Source of the DNA: Ferruginibacter sp.
GTDB taxonomy: Bacteria; Bacteroidota; Bacteroidia; Chitinophagales; Chitinophagaceae
Assembly: GCA_014379905.1 (NCBI GenBank)
Contig: JACMKX010000132.1
Span: 1 to 64,000 of the forward strand
DNA length: 64,000 nt
Reading direction: 5' to 3'
In this document: piece after piece, positions 48,030 through 57,837 of the stretch
Position numbering within the stretch: the stretch's first letter is position 1
How the letters are laid out: each line of letters starts with the position of its first letter
Position numbers and translations under genes: made by a program
Notes under the pieces: generated by a model
What the model was told of the DNA's origin: nothing
The model's database searches: none
The model's input: only the letters and a program-made list of their open reading frames with translations

Positions 48030-48809
48030 TCAATTTCCATGAATGGCACTAATAAATTGTGCTGTAGCGTGGTTTATATCAACGGCAGCAGCAATATGTT
48101 GAATAAATGCCGTACCAATAATAGCGCCGGCGCCATAGGAGGCGGCTTCATCAAAACTTTCTTTATCTTTTATTCCAAAGCCAATCAGCAAAGGATTTTT
48201 GAGTTTCATATTTTGAATTCTCTTTAAATATCCCCCTATGTTTTCCCTGGAATTGACAGATCCTGTTGTAGAGGAAGATGAAACAGCATATACAAATCCG
48301 CCGCTCAGTTCATCCGCTTTTTTAATTCTTTCGCTGCTTGTTACAGGGCTGATGAGGAAAATAGCGTGTAATCCATATTTTTTAAATACTCCCTTATACT
48401 TTTTGTCAAATTCATACATGGGCAGGTCAGGTAATATAATGCCTGATACCCCGGAGCCGGCGGCTGCTTTGCAAAAATTTTCCATACCATACTGTAACAC
48501 AGGATTGATATAGCCCATTAGTATTAAAGGAATATGCAGCTGTTCTTTAACTGAAGCGAGTTGGGTAAACAATAATTCAATGGTCATCCCATTTTCCAGT
48601 GCCTGCATATTGCTTTGCTGAATTACCGGGCCATCTGCCACAGGATCACTGTAAGGAATACCGAGTTCAATTATATCGGCACCATGTTGTTGCAGCGCCA
48701 GCATGATGGCAGTTGTACTATACAGTTTGGGGAAACCGGCCGTGCAATAAATATTAAGAATGTTGTTAAATTTTTGGGCAAACAATATATCCAGTCTGTT
48801 CATAATCAT
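48030..48809 (-). CDS. trpA: Tryptophan synthase alpha chain
   Basis: A 259-residue TIM-barrel subunit that cleaves indole-3-glycerol phosphate to indole and glyceraldehyde 3-phosphate. IIELGIPYSDPVADGPVIQ holds the catalytic Glu and Asp-containing loop, and GSVNSRENIGGYLKR and LIGFGIKDKESF are phosphate-binding regions. The start at 48809 is supported by a 4-base ATGA overlap with the upstream lipoprotein gene; an ATG at 48803 is also possible. It is the last gene of the trp operon and works with TrpB, although a lipoprotein gene lies between them. Confidence 0.96.
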   Translation of the reverse strand: MIMNRLDILFAQKFNNILNIYCTAGFPKLYSTTAIMLALQQHGADIIELGIPYSDPVADGPVIQQSNMQALENGMTIELLFTQLASVKEQLHIPLILMGYINPVLQYGMENFCKAAAGSGVSGIILPDLPMYEFDKKYKGVFKKYGLHAIFLISPVTSSERIKKADELSGGFVYAVSSSSTTGSVNSRENIGGYLKRIQNMKLKNPLLIGFGIKDKESFDEAASYGAGAIIGTAFIQHIAAAVDINHATAQFISAIHGN

Positions 48810-49171
48810 AATCTTTCGGAAGGTACCAGGGGGATAGTTTGGCCACCCTCCCCTAATGTGATAAAACGATAAGGGGGTTTGGCATCAATATCAAGTATGA
48901 GTTTATAGGAAAACTTTTTACCTCCTGTTGCCGGAAATTTTACCAGCAAACTGTCTCCGCTTCTTACCACGGTATAATTTTTTTCATCAAATCCTTCACC
49001 CAGGCAGTATTGAAATTCATACCGTTCTCCATTAATATTGGAGATCATTTTTACGGGTACTGGCTGCTCATTACATTCACCTGAACCTTCTGCTTTAAGT
49101 GTGTGGTTGATAAAGGAGTCGCTGCAGGAACAAACCAAGACAATAACAATGACTGATAACAGGTATTTCAT
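48806..49171 (-). CDS. Small lipoprotein inserted between trpB and trpA
   Basis: A 121-residue protein with a lipoprotein signal (MKYLLSVIVIVLVCSCSDS, Cys near residue 16). The mature part is beta-rich (MISNINGERYEFQYCLGEGFD, GKKFSYKLILDIDAKPPYR) with two further Cys and no known domain. It begins 2 bases after the trpB stop and its stop overlaps the trpA ATG (ATGA), so it is fully embedded in the operon and translated with it. It may have nothing to do with tryptophan, and I do not recognise a family. Confidence 0.8.
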   Translation of the reverse strand: MKYLLSVIVIVLVCSCSDSFINHTLKAEGSGECNEQPVPVKMISNINGERYEFQYCLGEGFDEKNYTVVRSGDSLLVKFPATGGKKFSYKLILDIDAKPPYRFITLGEGGQTIPLVPSERL

Positions 49172-49173
49172 AC

Positions 49174-50367
49174 TCAAATAGATTTTATGTAAGTTGCCAG
49201 GTCTTTATCCCCTCTCCCACTCAAACACAGCACTACCACATCATTTTTTTTAAATGCCATTTTATGTAAGGCGAATAAAGCATGCGCACTTTCCAATGCA
49301 GGAATAATGCCTTCCAATTTACTGAGTTCAAAAGCGGCTGATAACGCTTCTTCATCGGTAGCACTCATAAATACAGCACGGCCGGATTTGTACAGGTGAG
49401 CGTGTAAAGGACCAATGCCCGGATAATCCAATCCAGCTGAAATGCTGTGTGGTTCTGTTACCTGGCCGTCTTTTGTTTGCATCACAAAACTTTTGCTGCC
49501 ATGCAATACACCAGGCGTCCCCAATTGAGTGGTAGCAGCAGATCTGCCGCTATCCAATCCGCAGCCTGCAGCTTCCACTGCAATTAACTGTACTTTTTTT
49601 TCTTTTATAAAATGATAAAAAGCACCGGCCGCATTGCTCCCCCCGCCAACACATGCTATTACATGCGTAGGCAATTCTTTACCGGTGGCCAGCTTCAATT
49701 GCTTTTTTATTTCTTTACTGATAACAGATTGAAATCTTGCAACCATGTCAGGATAAGGATGCGGTCCAACCACGCTGCCAATAATATAATGTGTATCATC
49801 GGGATGATTGATCCAGTCCCTGATGGCTTCGTTGGTAGCATCTTTTAATGTTTTGCTTCCACTGGTAGCCGGGATCACTGTTGCGCCGAGCATTTGCATA
49901 CGGGCAACATTGGGTGCCTGCCTTTCAATGTCTTTCTCTCCCATATATACAATACATTCCAGGCCCATGAGTGCGCAAACAGTTGCAGTGGCAACTCCAT
50001 GCTGACCTGCACCGGTTTCTGCAATGATCCTTTTTTTACCCAATTGTTGTGCCACCAATACCTGCCCTATAGTATTGTTGATCTTATGTGCACCGGTGTG
50101 GCACAGGTCTTCCCGCTTTAGGTAAATATTGGTATTGTATTGTTTGCTTAACCGCTTTGCATAATACAAAGGAGTAGGCCTGCCCACATAATTTTTTAAG
50201 AGCTGGCTGAATTGTTTTTTAAAAGAACTGCTACGGGATATTTTTAAATAATTATTCCGAAGTTCTTCTACATTCGGGTGCAACATCTCCGGAATGAAAG
50301 CACCTCCAAATTCGCCATAGTAGCCATGCTTATCCGGGTGAAGCATATATTTATTTTTCTCTCTCAT
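49174..50367 (-). CDS. trpB: Tryptophan synthase beta chain
   Basis: A 397-residue pyridoxal-phosphate enzyme that joins indole and serine to make tryptophan. [19 protein letters not shown] holds the PLP Lys, [20 protein letters not shown] the substrate loop, and [10 protein letters not shown] the phosphate-binding glycines. Length and start ([21 protein letters not shown]) are normal. It lies 10 bases downstream of trpF and 2 bases upstream of the embedded lipoprotein gene. Confidence 0.98.
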
Positions 50368-50377
50368 TTCAATTGGT

Positions 50378-51004
50378 CTATTTCAACCCGTGAATAAATT
50401 TTAGTAAAAGACCCATATCTTTTACACCCGGTTCCTTTTCGAAAAGACTGTTAAGGTCTACGCCAAAAAAATCAGGATGTTTAAAGGCCTTTACCATTTT
50501 TGCATCTTCGGGCCCAATGCCACCACTTAAGAAAAAGGGTTTTTCAATTTTTGCTGCTGCTATTTTGCTCCAGTCGAATTTTTTCCCGGTGGCACCTGCA
50601 CTGCCGTTCACTTTATTGTCAAACAAATAATAATCGCATACGCCATCATAGGCTGCAATCATTGCGTCAATATCCGTTATATTATCGTCGATACTGAAGG
50701 CTTTAATCACTTCTACTTCCGAAGAAAGATCATCGCACATTTCCGGTGTTTCATTGCCGTGTAATTGCACTACATCGAGTTTATAATTGTCAACGGCATC
50801 CAATACGTCTATCAATTCGGGATTTACAAATACGCCAACTTTTTTAAGATCGAGATCTGCATCTTTTACAAGGTTCTTTTCAATTTTTCCATCCACATAG
50901 CGGGGCGAATCTTTTACAAAGATTAATCCGGCAAAATCTACATTGAGCCCATCCAGCTGTTGTAATTGTTTAAAGGAATTGATGCCACATACTTTAATGT
51001 TCAT
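50378..51004 (-). CDS. trpF: Phosphoribosylanthranilate isomerase
   Basis: A 208-residue TIM-barrel enzyme of tryptophan synthesis (Amadori rearrangement of PRA to CdRP). [12 protein letters not shown] carries the catalytic Cys, [15 protein letters not shown] and [10 protein letters not shown] the family blocks with the catalytic Asp region ([11 protein letters not shown]), and [12 protein letters not shown] the phosphate site. It lies between trpC (23 bases) and trpB (10 bases). Confidence 0.95.
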
Positions 51005-51027: not shown

Positions 51028-51810
51028 TTATTGATGCAATTTCTGTACAAAATTTTGAAATGCTTTACCGGGATTCTTTTCTTTCATAAAATTTTCTCCT
51101 ATTAAAAATCCTTTATAGCCCGCGTTTTTCAAAAGCTGCACATTGGAGGGATCGCTGATCCCGCTTTCCGCAATTGTTACTTTACCGGAGGGTATTGATT
51201 TACTTAACAGGATTGATTGATGAATATCTACATCAAAGGTTTTTAAATTCCGGTTATTGATGCCAACGAGATCTATTTCATTACAAATATGATCCAATTC
51301 GGTTTCATCGTGTAATTCCAGTAAAACTTCCAGTTGTAGTTCTTTTGCATAGGCGGCCAGGTCTTTTACCTGTGCTATTGTAAGGCAGGATGCAATCAAC
51401 AGTATCACATCGGCACCAATAGCTTTTGCTTCTGTTACCTGGTAGGGATCAATTATAAAATCTTTCCGCAAAATTGGAATATTATTTACTCTTGCTGTTA
51501 TTAAATCTTCGTTATTGCCGGCAAAAAATTCGTGATCGGTTAATATACTCAGACCGCTGGCTCTAAACTGTGTATAGGCTTTTGTAACGGCACCTGCATC
51601 TGCATGTTGATTGATAAAACCTTTGGAAGGCGATCTTCTTTTAAACTCCGCAATAATGCCTGTTGAATTTTCTGCCAGTAAGTTTTTCTTTAAAGAAAAG
51701 CATGGCCGGGTGAAATGAGAACAGTCTTTCATCTCTTCTTCCGTTAGCATAATCTTTCTTACGGCTACTTCTTCAATTTTATGCGCTATGATCTTATCGA
51801 GTATATTCAT
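51028..51810 (-). CDS. trpC: Indole-3-glycerol phosphate synthase
   Basis: A 260-residue TIM-barrel enzyme that closes the indole ring. IIAEFKRRSPSKGFIN holds the first catalytic Lys region, ILTDHEFFAGNNEDL and PILRKDFIIDPYQ the next blocks (Lys in LRKDF), and LVGINNRNLKTFDVD the Asn-containing loop; IAESGISDPSNVQLL completes the phosphate site. Three bases separate it from trpD. Confidence 0.97.
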   Translation of the reverse strand: MNILDKIIAHKIEEVAVRKIMLTEEEMKDCSHFTRPCFSLKKNLLAENSTGIIAEFKRRSPSKGFINQHADAGAVTKAYTQFRASGLSILTDHEFFAGNNEDLITARVNNIPILRKDFIIDPYQVTEAKAIGADVILLIASCLTIAQVKDLAAYAKELQLEVLLELHDETELDHICNEIDLVGINNRNLKTFDVDIHQSILLSKSIPSGKVTIAESGISDPSNVQLLKNAGYKGFLIGENFMKEKNPGKAFQNFVQKLHQ

Positions 51811-51813
51811 GTT

Positions 51814-52797
51814 TTATGCAATTAGGGTTTGCAAACACTTATAAGCTTTCCCGCTTTCCAGGCTCTCTACTGCCAGCTGGTAACAGCTTTCATAATCTCC
51901 ATATTTATTCATACAGTTCAAAGCCATGGCCGCATTGGAAATCACAACGGCGTTCTGCGACCAGGTACCTTCGCCTCTTAGGATTTTTAAAAAGATAGCA
52001 GCGGCCTCCTCCACAGTATTCCCGCCATACAATTCCGAAGGCAACACAATTCTTTTTCCCAGTTTTTCTGCACTTAAAACCTGTTCTCCCTTTTTAGTGA
52101 TCACTTTGGTATCACCGGTCAGAGAAATTTCATCATAGCCATCCAGGCTGTGTAAGATGGTAAATGCGGAATTTTCCTGTTGTAAAAGATAGTTATAAAT
52201 CCTGGCCATTTCAAGATTAAATACACCTACCAGCTGGAATTTTGGGGATGCGGGGTTTACCATTGGCCCCAGCATGTTAAAAAATGTACGTACCCCAAGG
52301 TTTTTACGAATGTTTCCTGCTACTTTTAATGCCGGGTGAAATAAGGGTGCGTGTAAAAAACAAATGTTTGAACGATCAAGTTCTTTATTCAATTCAGCTT
52401 CTGATGTTTGAAAACGATAGCCCAGCTGCTCCATCACATTGGAAGAGCCGCTGATTGAACTGGCGCCGTAATTACCATGCTTGGCCACTTTGTTACCGGT
52501 GCCGGCAACGATAAAACAGCTAAGGGTTGAAATATTAAAGGTATTTTTTCCATCCCCGCCGGTGCCAACAATATCTGTCAATTCGCCTTCCAGGTTTACA
52601 GGCAGGGCTAATTCCATCAATGCATCTTTAAATCCCTGCAGTTCATCAATGGTAATGGTTCGCATAAGGTATACCGTTATCAATGCGGCAATTTCCGATT
52701 CATTGAATTTTTTTTCACTAACCTGCACTAATATATCACGGGCTTGTTGCCGGGTAAGTGTTTTGTATTCGAAAAGATAATTTAGAATCTTCTTCAT
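51814..52797 (-). CDS. trpD: Anthranilate phosphoribosyltransferase
   Basis: A 327-residue enzyme (counted from MKKILNYLFEYKTLT at 52797; ATGs at 52800 and 52806 are also in frame). It adds phosphoribose to anthranilate. The PRPP-binding signatures are VGTGGDGKNTFNIST, KHGNYGASSISGSSNVMEQLGY and the HPALKVAGNIRKNLGVRTFFN loop with its family-typical Arg. It lies 50 bases downstream of an embedded membrane-protein gene, the widest gap inside the operon. Confidence 0.97.
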   Translation of the reverse strand: MKKILNYLFEYKTLTRQQARDILVQVSEKKFNESEIAALITVYLMRTITIDELQGFKDALMELALPVNLEGELTDIVGTGGDGKNTFNISTLSCFIVAGTGNKVAKHGNYGASSISGSSNVMEQLGYRFQTSEAELNKELDRSNICFLHAPLFHPALKVAGNIRKNLGVRTFFNMLGPMVNPASPKFQLVGVFNLEMARIYNYLLQQENSAFTILHSLDGYDEISLTGDTKVITKKGEQVLSAEKLGKRIVLPSELYGGNTVEEAAAIFLKILRGEGTWSQNAVVISNAAMALNCMNKYGDYESCYQLAVESLESGKAYKCLQTLIA

Positions 52798-52847
52798 CAT
52801 TAACATTATTTATAAATCCTTGTTTTTGTATTTTGACCATCTCTCAT

Positions 52848-53339
52848 TTAATAGTTTTTCCAAATATTAAATGAATATTTGAGTGATACAGTAGAGATAA
52901 CCAATGGGGAATCATAGATATCCATGGTTGCTTTTAAACTACTTTTTTTAAAGCCAGTAACTTTTGCTAAAAAAAAGTCTGGTTGTTTTACATGTATAAA
53001 TATTAGCCTTATAGACTGAACTTTCAGCATTTCTAAATCTACTATTTCATTCCAAGGTATAAAACCAATTGCTGAAGCGCTGCTGTTATCATAAATACCG
53101 TTTTCATCAATTATCAATCCCGGATTTCTATCAAAAATTTTATAAACGCTATAAATGCTCATTAATCCTGAAAGAAGTATGAAAAGCCCACCAATAATTT
53201 TTATAATTAATGTATTATAAGGTTGTTGAATATCAACTAGTTCAACAATAAAATACATCCCGATAAAAAAAAATACTAATGAACCTAATAAAAACAAAAA
53301 CATCTTTCTTCTACTTAAAGGAATTTCGATTTTTTCCAT
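52848..53339 (-). CDS. STM3941-like membrane protein embedded in the trp operon
   Basis: A protein of 163 residues (from the ATG at 53339) with two membrane helices near the N-terminus (FLFLLGSLVFFFIGMYFIV and IIKIIGGLFILLSGLMSIYS). A cytoplasmic domain follows with a PH-like pattern (GLIIDENGIYDNS, IGFIPWNEIVDLEML). MEKIEIPLSRRK at the start resembles the STM3941 family. A further ATG at 53348 directly follows the trpG TAA. It is read in the same direction as trpG and trpD, so it is cotranscribed, but no link with tryptophan synthesis is known. Confidence 0.72.
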   Translation of the reverse strand: MEKIEIPLSRRKMFLFLLGSLVFFFIGMYFIVELVDIQQPYNTLIIKIIGGLFILLSGLMSIYSVYKIFDRNPGLIIDENGIYDNSSASAIGFIPWNEIVDLEMLKVQSIRLIFIHVKQPDFFLAKVTGFKKSSLKATMDIYDSPLVISTVSLKYSFNIWKNY

Positions 53340-53348
53340 AAACAACAT

Positions 53349-53918
53349 TTATGACTTTAACCAATTCCTCATGATCTGTTCCCCACAAGGCGTTAATACA
53401 CTTTCCGGGTGAAACTGAACTCCCTGCACGTCATATTTTTTGTGTTGCATAGCCATTATAAATCCATTGTCATCCAATGCAGTTACTTCCAGTTCTGCCG
53501 GTAATGTATTTTTATTTACTATCCAGCTATGATACCTGCCTACTTCTTCTGTAGCATTGAGTCCCTTTAAAATTCCTTTTTGATCCGGGAAAATTTTTAT
53601 CGGTGTTGCCACACCATGGTATACGGTATCCAGGTTGATCAGGTTTCCCCCAAAAGCTTCGCCGATGGCCTGGTGCCCCAAACATACGCCCAGTATTGAT
53701 TTGGAAGGAGCATATTGTTTTATCAGGCTTAACAACAATCCTGCCTCTGAAGGAACGCCGGGACCCGGTGATAAAATGATCTTGTCATACTCCTTTATTT
53801 TTTCCAATGCAATTTCATCATTACGAAATACATCCACCTTTTCATGAGTGATCTTTTCCACCAGGTGCACAAGATTGTAGGTGAAAGAATCATAATTATC
53901 AAAAACGAGCATCTTCAT
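53349..53918 (-). CDS. trpG: Anthranilate synthase component II (glutamine amidotransferase)
   Basis: A 189-residue class I glutamine amidotransferase that supplies ammonia to TrpE. LVFDNYDSFTYNLVHLVE is the N-terminal motif, the catalytic Cys is in LGVCLGHQAIGEAFGG (about residue 79) and His-Glu in VQFHPESVLTPCGEQ (about 168-170). One base separates it from trpE. The similar PabA form is excluded by its place in the trp operon. Confidence 0.97.
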   Translation of the reverse strand: MKMLVFDNYDSFTYNLVHLVEKITHEKVDVFRNDEIALEKIKEYDKIILSPGPGVPSEAGLLLSLIKQYAPSKSILGVCLGHQAIGEAFGGNLINLDTVYHGVATPIKIFPDQKGILKGLNATEEVGRYHSWIVNKNTLPAELEVTALDDNGFIMAMQHKKYDVQGVQFHPESVLTPCGEQIMRNWLKS

Positions 53919-53919
53919 G

Positions 53920-55341
53920 TTAAATAGTTTGTGCTAATTCAATGGCTTTTTTTAATGCGCCTAATTTATTATTTACTTCCTGCAATTCATTTTCCGGCTG
54001 ACTGGCAGCTACTACACCGGCTCCTGCCTGGTAATACAAAGTGTTGTTCTTACTTAAAAAACTACGGATCATAATGGCATGATTGCAACTGCCATCAAAA
54101 CCAATAAAACCGATGGCACCGCCATAAAATCCCCTTGCTGTTCTTTCGCTGGCATCAATGATTTGCATGGCTTTGTATTTGGGTGCCCCGCTTAATGTAC
54201 CTGCAGGGAAACTAGTCCCTAATATTTTAAAAGGATTACCGCTTTGATCAATTGTTCCCTGTACTTCACTCACCATATGAATGACATGAGAATAAAATTG
54301 TATTTTTTTAAAGGCAGTTACTTCAACGTTATTGCATACCCGGCTGAGGTCATTTCTTGCCAGGTCTACCAACATTACGTGTTCTGCATTTTCTTTAGGA
54401 TCATTTTCAAGTTCAATGGCGCTCGCTTTATCTATATCGTCATCCCCACTGCGTTTGAAAGTGCCTGCAATTGGATGAACAATAGCCTTACCATTCTGAA
54501 TAATAAGTTGACTTTCCGGGGAAGATCCGGTTAATTTATAATCGCCATAATCAAAATAAAAAAGATAGGGACTGGGGTTGACTGTTCGCAATGCTCGGTA
54601 AACATTAAATTCATCGCCTTTGAATGATTGCTGAAAACGCCTGCTTAAAACTACCTGGAATACATCGCCCCTTTGACAGGCCTTTATACCAGTGTTTACC
54701 ATATCCACATATTCTTTATCGGAGATATTGGTAGCTTCATCGCCATATACAGAAAAAGGAAACACGGGAACATCCTTATTGCTGATCAGGCTTTCCACAT
54801 CTGCCAGCCTGCTTTCCAACCCGCTGAATATATTTTCGGATAAGTACAATTCATCTTTAAAATGATTGAAGATGATCACATACTGGTATAGCCTGTAGCG
54901 CACTAAAGGAATTTGCATTTCATTTTCCTTTATTTTTTTTTGATCAAATTGTATGTTTTCAAAAAAAGGAATGGCATCATAAGCCGTATAACCAAACATT
55001 CCCTGGGCAATATTTACAGGTTTTACAGCAGGCTTTTCCATCTCAAACTGATCCATAAAACCGGCCATTATACCGGCAAGATCATTGGCTTTGCCAAGAT
55101 TGGTTTTTTCAGGGTTGCGATTGGGCAGTTTTGATTCTACCTGTTGCTGATCGGTGATCTCTATGCCAGCAATGGCATTGATTCCTATAATAGAAAAACT
55201 GTTTTCACCAGCATGAAAATCAGTACTCTCCATGAGAATAGTATCCCTGAATTTATCACGCAGGCGAAGGTAAATGCCCACCGGCGTGTAAATATCTGCC
55301 AGCATTTTTTTGAATTCAGTTTTAAAAACTATTTTTTTCAT
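53920..55341 (-). CDS. trpE: Anthranilate synthase component I
   Basis: A 473-residue chorismate-utilising enzyme. The N-terminal region begins MKKIVFKTEFKKMLADIYTP and includes ESTDFHAGENSFSIIG near residue 40; the LLES Trp-feedback motif of other TrpE proteins appears here as LMESTD. Core signatures are QVVLSRRFQQSFKGDEFNVY, GSSPE, IAGTFKRSGDDDIDKA, HVMLVDLARNDLSRV and FPAGTLSGAPKYKAMQIID. It is the first structural gene of the operon. Expression is likely controlled by the leader peptide and terminator directly upstream. Confidence 0.97.
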   Translation of the reverse strand: MKKIVFKTEFKKMLADIYTPVGIYLRLRDKFRDTILMESTDFHAGENSFSIIGINAIAGIEITDQQQVESKLPNRNPEKTNLGKANDLAGIMAGFMDQFEMEKPAVKPVNIAQGMFGYTAYDAIPFFENIQFDQKKIKENEMQIPLVRYRLYQYVIIFNHFKDELYLSENIFSGLESRLADVESLISNKDVPVFPFSVYGDEATNISDKEYVDMVNTGIKACQRGDVFQVVLSRRFQQSFKGDEFNVYRALRTVNPSPYLFYFDYGDYKLTGSSPESQLIIQNGKAIVHPIAGTFKRSGDDDIDKASAIELENDPKENAEHVMLVDLARNDLSRVCNNVEVTAFKKIQFYSHVIHMVSEVQGTIDQSGNPFKILGTSFPAGTLSGAPKYKAMQIIDASERTARGFYGGAIGFIGFDGSCNHAIMIRSFLSKNNTLYYQAGAGVVAASQPENELQEVNNKLGALKKAIELAQTI

Positions 55342-55352
55342 TTGATGCCATT

Positions 55353-55378
55353 AAAAAAGCCCCGACTGTGTCGGGGCC
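55353..55378 (-). terminator. Attenuator (intrinsic terminator) of the trp operon
   Basis: On the minus strand GCCCCGAC, loop ACA, GTCGGGGC is followed by six T, just 12 bases before the trpE ATG. A terminator this close to a gene it precedes, rather than follows, implies regulated read-through. The 5' side and loop can alternatively pair with the end of the leader-peptide sequence (55411-55423). Confidence 0.88.
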
Positions 55379-55423
55379 TGGTATATTTTAAACAAATACA
55401 AATAAGCGATGACACAATCAGGA
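55360..55423 (-). promoter_or_regulatory. Antiterminator of the trp attenuator
   Basis: TCCTGATTGTGTC (minus strand, 55423-55411) and GACACAGTCGGGG (55372-55360) pair over 13 consecutive positions, ten Watson-Crick and three G-U. This would disrupt the terminator, whose first arm and loop it uses. The 5' segment includes the last codon (TCC) and stop (TGA) of the leader peptide, so a ribosome at the stop would mask it and one stalled at the Trp codons would not. This is inference from base pairing. Confidence 0.78.
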
Positions 55424-55471
55424 GATTATGTTCCACCACCAGCATTTGTTATTTGATTTGATAATTGTCAT
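55418..55471 (-). CDS. trpL: trp operon leader peptide
   Basis: A 17-codon ORF reading MTIIKSNNKCWWWNIIS and a TGA, with three Trp codons in a row (codons 11-13, TGGTGGTGG at 55441-55433), a strong signal because Trp is the rarest codon. It begins at an ATG 127 bases upstream of the trpE ATG and is too short for standard gene finders. No ribosome-binding site is evident and the predicted promoter would place the transcript start near the ATG. The combination with the following antiterminator and terminator makes it a ribosome-sensed attenuator: low charged tRNA-Trp stalls the ribosome and permits read-through. Confidence 0.85.
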   Translation of the reverse strand: MTIIKSNNKCWWWNIIS

Positions 55472-55479
55472 TCGTTGTA

Positions 55480-55510
55480 CAAAGTAAACAGAGATTGATC
55501 AAACAGCAAA
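55480..55510 (-). promoter_or_regulatory. Candidate promoter of the trp operon
   Basis: A TTTG at 55510-55507 (minus strand) lies 20 bases upstream of TACTTTG (55486-55480), close to the Bacteroidota consensus TTTG-N19/21-TAnnTTTG except that one base is missing in the -7 element. Transcription would start within a few bases of the trpL ATG. Confidence 0.5.
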
Positions 55511-55586
55511 AAAAACTTTTACTATATTGTAAAACAGTATCTGGTATCCAGTATAAACCAAAGTGAATCTCTTAAAAACATTTCTT

Positions 55587-57407: not shown

Positions 57408-57579
57408 ATCCCTTACCCCTAAAGGGGATTTTGATTTAATGTGATTGAATACATTTTCTATTGCAAAAGTATAGTAATTGCATCGCTTTGCTTTAGAAAT
57501 TTTAGCGGCTTAAATGAATGAAGCGGCTGTAAAGATTCGGGAAGTAAAAAGCGCCCTCAGGAGTTGGGGCAAAAAAAAA

Positions 57580-57677
57580 TGGCAAGTTACTTACATCGCA
57601 CCGCTCAACCATCTACCCTTGCTACCTTCCGGTCCTGGGGGAGTTCAACAGGAGCTGGTCGTATAAGACTTGCCGGG
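57580..57677 (-). ncRNA. ffs: Small signal recognition particle RNA (4.5S-like)
   Basis: The minus strand shows the conserved SRP RNA core: AACTCCCCCAGGACCGGAAG and GTAGCAAGGGTAGATGGTTG, which fold into the helix 8 that binds Ffh (CAGG, GGAAG, AGCAAGG motifs). The ends GGCAAG (57581-57586) and CTTGCC (57669-57674) on the plus strand are complementary, closing a hairpin of about 94 bases. A run of nine T follows at 57571-57579 as terminator. It lies in the 430-base gap between the aldolase gene and the plug-protein gene; the rest of that gap holds only an inverted GATGCCGGA pair. Confidence 0.9.
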
Positions 57678-57837
57678 GCAAAGATAAGGAGAATAGCGTT
57701 TAATAAAAAAGGATCGGAGAATTATTATTGTTGGCAGGGATATTTTTTCAGGATGCCGGATACCAGATCCTGGGAAGAGTCTATAAAATTTTATAGATTT
57801 ATTTAATATCTTGAAGATCTCAACCAGCATCCGGCAT

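Follow-up and report, generated by a model that had tools for sequence, protein, structure and literature searches.

The trp operon of Ferruginibacter sp. lies on the minus strand of a 64,000-nucleotide stretch of contig JACMKX010000132.1 (assembly GCA_014379905.1), here called the window, and the short region in front of trpE raises the question of whether, and by what means, it decides if the operon is transcribed. On this strand a 17-codon ORF is followed by a pairing arm, by the partner of that arm within a GC-rich hairpin, by six T and then by trpE. The leader ORF MTIIKSNNKCWWWNIIS (55418..55471), which is kept in relatives, has 17 codons and the stop codon TGA (55420-55418). As an earlier note on this DNA had described, it carries three consecutive Trp codons, TGG TGG TGG, at 55433..55441 (read 55441-55433). 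The sequence TGGTGGTGG was counted three times in the window against 0.51 expected, so the motif by itself is weak evidence, and the case for it depends on its conservation and on where it stands, inside an ORF that is followed by a terminator and trpE.

A full trp operon stands behind the leader, all on the minus strand: trpE for anthranilate synthase component I (53920..55341, ATG at 55341), trpG for a glutamine amidotransferase (53349..53918), an ORF, trpD (51814..52806), trpC (51028..51810), trpF (50378..51004), trpB (49174..50367; Pfam PALP, the gene name being inferred from family and place), a second ORF and trpA (48030..48809). The two ORFs, of 166 aa between trpG and trpD (52848-53348) and of 123 aa between trpB and trpA (48806-49177), had no Pfam match.

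In the predicted fold of 55425-55352, the antiterminator 5' arm TCCTGATTGTGTC (55423-55411) pairs over 13 bp with the 3' arm GACACAGTCGGGG (55372-55360). Arms and fold are as the earlier note gave them, but conservation is confined to the inner 6 bp, namely the core TGTGTC at 55416-55411, seen in both fold and covariation, and the core GACACA at 55372-55367, which is shared with the terminator. The terminator stem-loop (55357..55379) was counted at 9-10 pairs (10 over 55379-55357 in one count) instead of the 8 bp claimed before, and the run of six T (55353..55358) is present as claimed but ends 11 bases, not 12, before the ATG of trpE. Fold and covariation in the genus agree on this intrinsic terminator between the leader and the first structural gene. 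The fold also suggests that ACATAATC and GATTGTGT may pair into a leader hairpin around the stop codon (55412..55431). The 120-nt leader had a folding energy of -40.6 kcal/mol, compared with -22.2 (sd 3.1) for shuffled sequences (z -6.0; none of 200 shuffles was as low), and the z values of the antiterminator segment and the terminator in the shuffle test were -5.4 and -4.9.

The element before trpE is very probably a ribosome-mediated transcription attenuator that controls the trp operon by the same logic as in E. coli. The earlier note had read it in this way, and leader conservation and the covariation of core and terminator in relatives support that reading. The start of transcription would lie a few bases upstream of the leader ATG. 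With little charged tRNA-Trp in the cell, the leading ribosome would stall at 55441-55433, and the arm 55416-55411, which begins 25 nt downstream of the first base of the first Trp codon, would be free to pair with 55372-55367. This antiterminator would take the top of the terminator 5' strand and the loop, and with no terminator formed, RNA polymerase would go on into the operon. With ample tryptophan, the ribosome would reach the stop codon and, going by the generally known ribosome footprint, would be expected to cover the arm; the terminator would then form and transcription would end before trpE. We infer the coupling of translation with transcription and the response to tryptophan in this mechanism.

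Relatives were searched by taxonomic group of the genome collection, and "family" and "genus" are used here in that sense. TrpE was matched at E 1e-60 in 86 of 117 family genomes, and inspection of all 86 upstream regions found a leader ORF with tandem Trp codons (TGGTGG) in 84. Three TGG were present in 75 of these 84 leaders, the first Trp codon came after 7-11 codons in 82, and a simple rule recognised a terminator behind the leader in 75, leaving 9 without. The two exceptions in the family were a locus with a one-Trp leader, judged by eye (L067), and a locus with no leader (L082).

In the genus, trpE was present in 31 of 59 genomes, and all 31 had a Trp leader. The leader scan was positive in 28 of them (26 of 29 scanned, plus L001 and L003, both counted in the family too), and the other three were recovered by a model of the genus leader or by eye. 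Two leaders recognised by eye have WCW (L094) and WIW with a GTG start (L114), and that of genome G166 lies about 530 nt upstream of trpE with another ORF between. This intervening ORF belongs to Pfam PDDEXK_3 (L203, C44:4300-5100). The 28 genus genomes with trpE missing at E 1e-60 include 20 of the 42 with at least 90% completeness and at most 5% contamination, and tryptophan synthesis seems to have been lost often in this genus.

Outside the family, the leader was found in 26 of 28 loci of the order and class. In other classes of the phylum it was found in 17 of 36 loci examined, out of 96 with trpE, which is a guide figure since one locus (L150) is doubtful and start sites are rough there. 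Among named records, the best 80 of a larger number of TrpE matches (nearest: Chitinophagales, Chitinophagaceae, Ferruginibacter) gave 72 leaders in the 79 loci with enough upstream sequence, and these loci overlap the other sets. Several cultured, named strains carry the leader.

Covariation was measured in an alignment of 30 sequences, 29 from genus loci and one from another genus of the family (L050), with L101 and L114 left out. The arm in the genus is TGTGYC, mostly directly after the stop codon, and its partner GRCACA is at the top of the terminator 5' strand. In the antiterminator core (6 bp, 55416-55411 with 55372-55367) 85.1% of cells were paired, where shuffles gave 79.3 (sd 0.9), and pairing fell to 22-49% when the core was slid. 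The covariation score was 0.219 against 0.123 in shuffles, and none of 500 shuffles was as high. Two of the five antiterminator measures were not above shuffles (both-side changes, 122/500; further pair types, 484/500). Pair 33:81 was C-G in 16 sequences, U-A in 13 and other in 1 (n=30); pair 29:85 was U-A in 18, C-G in 3 and G-C in 1, with 6 unpaired and 2 gaps. The seventh pair (35:79) failed in 17 of 30, and the outer part of the 13-bp pairing (TCCTGA with TCGGGG) was not found among the relatives. Compensatory change thus backs an antiterminator that excludes the terminator for the core 6 bp only. The opposing leader hairpin (1:2) did not covary as aligned (61.0% of cells paired; 390 of 500 shuffles as high).

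In the terminator, 94.5% of cells were paired against 87.2 (sd 1.0) in shuffles. The triplets formed by the arm, the terminator 5' strand and its 3' strand were CGC in 14, TAT in 12, CGT in 2, GGT in 1 and TAG in 1 of the 30 sequences; such joint change of three strands is expected where two structures compete for one strand. On the TrpE tree of the 30 rows, pair 33:81 changed state at least 5 times; starred branches force 2 of the changes, and in all 27 scored rows the arm agrees with its partner. The starred branches leave 2 independent pairs, too few for a sign test. One locus had no pairing (L100) and one was out of register in the alignment (L088). The parts of the element, their conservation and the joint change of the arm and both terminator strands in relatives are direct observations, and the Trp codons and stems for which the earlier note had proposed a search in relatives are both there, as Trp codons in leaders of 84 of 86 family genomes with trpE and as covarying terminator and core antiterminator in the genus.

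In the rest of the family the arm has another form. In 66 of 84 family leaders it is GGGG or GAGG within the last codons, a copy of the terminator 3' strand, and it is in reading phase 1, 0 or 2 in 44, 15 and 7 of the 66. Because the G-rich arm is kept in all three phases, it is the RNA and not the peptide that is constrained there. Leader codons fitted the terminator 5' strand of their own genome better than those of other genomes (-13.93 vs -12.47 kcal/mol, p 0.0002), as did the coding arm against the loop and 3' strand (p 0.008); both values come from the 75 loci with a terminator by the simple rule, with relatedness not removed. Across the whole family the same test was negative for the 18 nt that follow the stop (p 0.93 and 0.63), which is what an arm lying within the codons would lead one to expect. 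Against shuffled leader segments the arm pairing gave a weak result, with 36 of 75 loci beating 95% of shuffles, and the shuffled segments stay G-rich and are a poor control.

The distance from the first Trp codon to the arm was 21-27 nt for GGGG/GAGG (66 leaders) and 23-29 nt for the RTGYY arm in 29 of 30 leaders of the genus type. In three leaders (L110, L112, L115) the stop is further on and the arm is inside the codons, and the distance is still 27. Both forms of the antiterminator arm keep a spacing of about 25 nt to the first Trp codon.

A nascent peptide can itself sense free tryptophan and arrest the ribosome, as TnaC does. If the trp leader worked in this way, the peptide sequence would matter beyond the Trp codons. 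Many family leaders do have WWWHTNxxRGL in common, as well as an Asn three codons ahead of the first Trp, which speaks for such sensing; HTNxxRGL, however, is lost in the genus of the window, and tandem cognate codons fit the sensing of tRNA. The last part of the conserved peptide end was considered as a sensor and rejected, since the G-rich stretch behind RGL occurs in the three phases counted above. We regard peptide sensing as very unlikely.

For the start of the leader RNA, we noted by eye, on the minus strand, a TTTG at 55507..55510 as a possible -33 element and TTACTTTG at 55480..55487 as the likely -7 box, one base off TAnnTTTG. The box also misses the pattern YAnnTTYG by one base, stands 8 nt before the ATG and is placed as in relatives. 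The RNA start in the window is predicted near 55475, with a 5' UTR of about 4 nt. A YAnnTTYG box ending 4-9 nt before the leader start was found in 96 of 133 loci (136 were scanned and three dropped for short upstream sequence), that is in 66/81 of the family, 20/26 of the genus and 10/26 of the order and class, where support is weak. The commonest gap from box to start was 7 nt (44 loci). Shuffles gave 2.5 loci with a box on average and 8 at most, and the box stood before 4 of 332 long ORFs of the fetched loci and the window, a rough control that includes genes inside operons and chance ORFs.

The -33 TTTG consensus is given in PMC7366714, which also puts about 3.7% of 5' UTRs in B. thetaiotaomicron under 10 nt. 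For F. psychrophilum, PMC9723704 gives a box from -12 to -5 and a share of 5.5% leaderless mRNAs. With the F. psychrophilum spacing, the predicted leader 5' UTR is 0-5 nt. The leader RNA is probably near-leaderless, because a Bacteroidetes -7 box stands so close to the start in these 96 loci. Such a start suggests a way for quick ribosome loading without a Shine-Dalgarno sequence, which genes of Bacteroidota mostly lack. On balance we favour a general rule for the phylum: translation of trp leader peptides would begin at the 5' end of the RNA or a few bases from it, and the ribosome would act as a ruler that sets the antiterminator arm about 25 nt downstream of the first Trp codon, with the stop and the phase drifting about this constant spacing. 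If this is true, the first ribosome trails RNA polymerase closely at trp leaders in Bacteroidota. To our knowledge, the coupling of translation with transcription has been little tested in Bacteroidota, and since this conserved, covarying design needs it at the leader, the element is a ready test system.

The model of the genus leader matched strongly, at E 1.2e-6 or lower, in 30 of the 31 genus genomes with trpE, of which 29 were in the model by construction and G166 was not. The remaining one, G154, has a leader of the other form. In the 28 genus genomes without trpE no match was better than 1.8e-4, and by eye the matches in four of them (G165, G121, G143 and G162) were rejected as Trp leaders, being ordinary terminators with no Trp leader ORF. 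In the genome of the window, the leader was the single match.

These matches bear on a second alternative, in which the leader RNA, once terminated, or the peptide that it encodes would act in trans in the manner of rnTrpL/peTrpL of Sinorhizobium meliloti, and this action, not read-through, would be the selected function. A near-leaderless short ORF with a strong terminator is indeed the layout of rnTrpL (PMC7298713). The strong matches, however, accompany trpE (30/31 with it, 0/28 without), and the arms that covary are those required for cis control. Trans action in place of cis attenuation is very unlikely; it might instead exist in addition to it. A chance neighbourhood of a three-TGG short ORF and an ordinary terminator, for which one may point to the two further copies of TGGTGGTGG in the window, is hardly credible against the conservation, the covariation, the constant distance from Trp codon to arm and the link with trpE.

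The genome of the window was also scanned for other leaders within 1.5 kb around the matches to hisG, ilvD, homoserine dehydrogenase and prephenate dehydratase, a scan that may miss a thrA or pheA leader. Leaders were found at two hisG and at ilvD. Before one hisG (L183, C30, 1122-1250, plus strand) there are the ORF MKQNIHINHHHYFAEG, a terminator GGGCTTAC..GTAAGCCC and seven T, a probable his attenuator by its sequence; before the second (L184, C21, 1221-1340, plus strand), the ORF MKQFSHIHHYHILPPGKLC, GGCTTAC..GTGAGCC and seven T are probably another. Before ilvD (L185, C98, 171-325 of the minus strand) there are an Ile/Val-rich ORF MLKNNINRIIAATIIIVVIIIIPVTTGGGSCI, ACCCGCC..GGCGGGT and a T run, a probable ilv attenuator. 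This genome (194 contigs, 3.25% contamination) had two hisG and two homoserine dehydrogenase matches, from either gene duplication or a mixed assembly.

No trp-leader model of Rfam matched the window at cut-off. Its only match at cut-off was the Bacteroidales small SRP RNA (RF04183, 92 bits; 57576-57682, minus strand). The scores were 27.8 bits for RF01692, Bacteroid-trp (E 0.27; gathering cut-off 49), and 29.8 bits for RF00513, Trp_leader (E 0.00021 with 261 bases searched; cut-off 41). T-box models were absent at cut-off in the window, and none was among the 14 matches that 55300-55560 gave with E up to 10. In the family, none of 40 other loci scanned (of 85; 20 with matches listed to E 0.05 and 20 at cut-off, without match) reached a trp-leader cut-off, and four RF00513 matches of 28-30 bits among 20 family loci were under the cut-off of 41. 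In the order and class, RF01692 passed its cut-off at 8 of the 20 loci scanned (of 28), all of them with a Trp leader in front of trpE.

Weinberg et al. 2010 (PMC2864571) list Bacteroid-trp for Bacteroidetes, and PMC6414381 places it before the trp operon of F. psychrophilum. Strong clues to leader-peptide attenuation before amino-acid operons are reported in PMC9723704. This kind of attenuator is already described in silico for Bacteroidetes (RF01692), and the core finding is what a specialist would expect. On trp attenuation in this family nothing was found in the open PMC literature, which is weak evidence as subscription journals were outside the scope. The present work gives a comparative record of a ribosome-mediated trp attenuator in a family whose scanned loci miss the Rfam cut-offs.

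Compared with known systems, the element shares with Bacteroid-trp the phylum and a Trp leader RNA before the trp operon, but arm sequence and leader differ. With the E. coli-type attenuator (RF00513), whose match in the window is full-length but weak, it shares tandem Trp codons for a leader peptide, an antiterminator and a terminator that exclude each other, and the position of the terminator directly before trpE. It differs in that the antiterminator takes the top of the terminator and the loop, not the whole 5' strand, and in that its leader ORF is predicted to start only a few bases into the RNA. This last feature resembles rnTrpL/peTrpL of S. meliloti, a trp attenuator with the leader ORF at the very 5' end of its RNA, the first bases of rnTrpL being the ATG of trpL (PMC7298713); that system belongs to another phylum, and trans action is reported for it. 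The attenuator of the window is of a known kind, outside the catalogue models, to which it adds the near-leaderless start predicted here and the fixed distance from the Trp codons to the arm.
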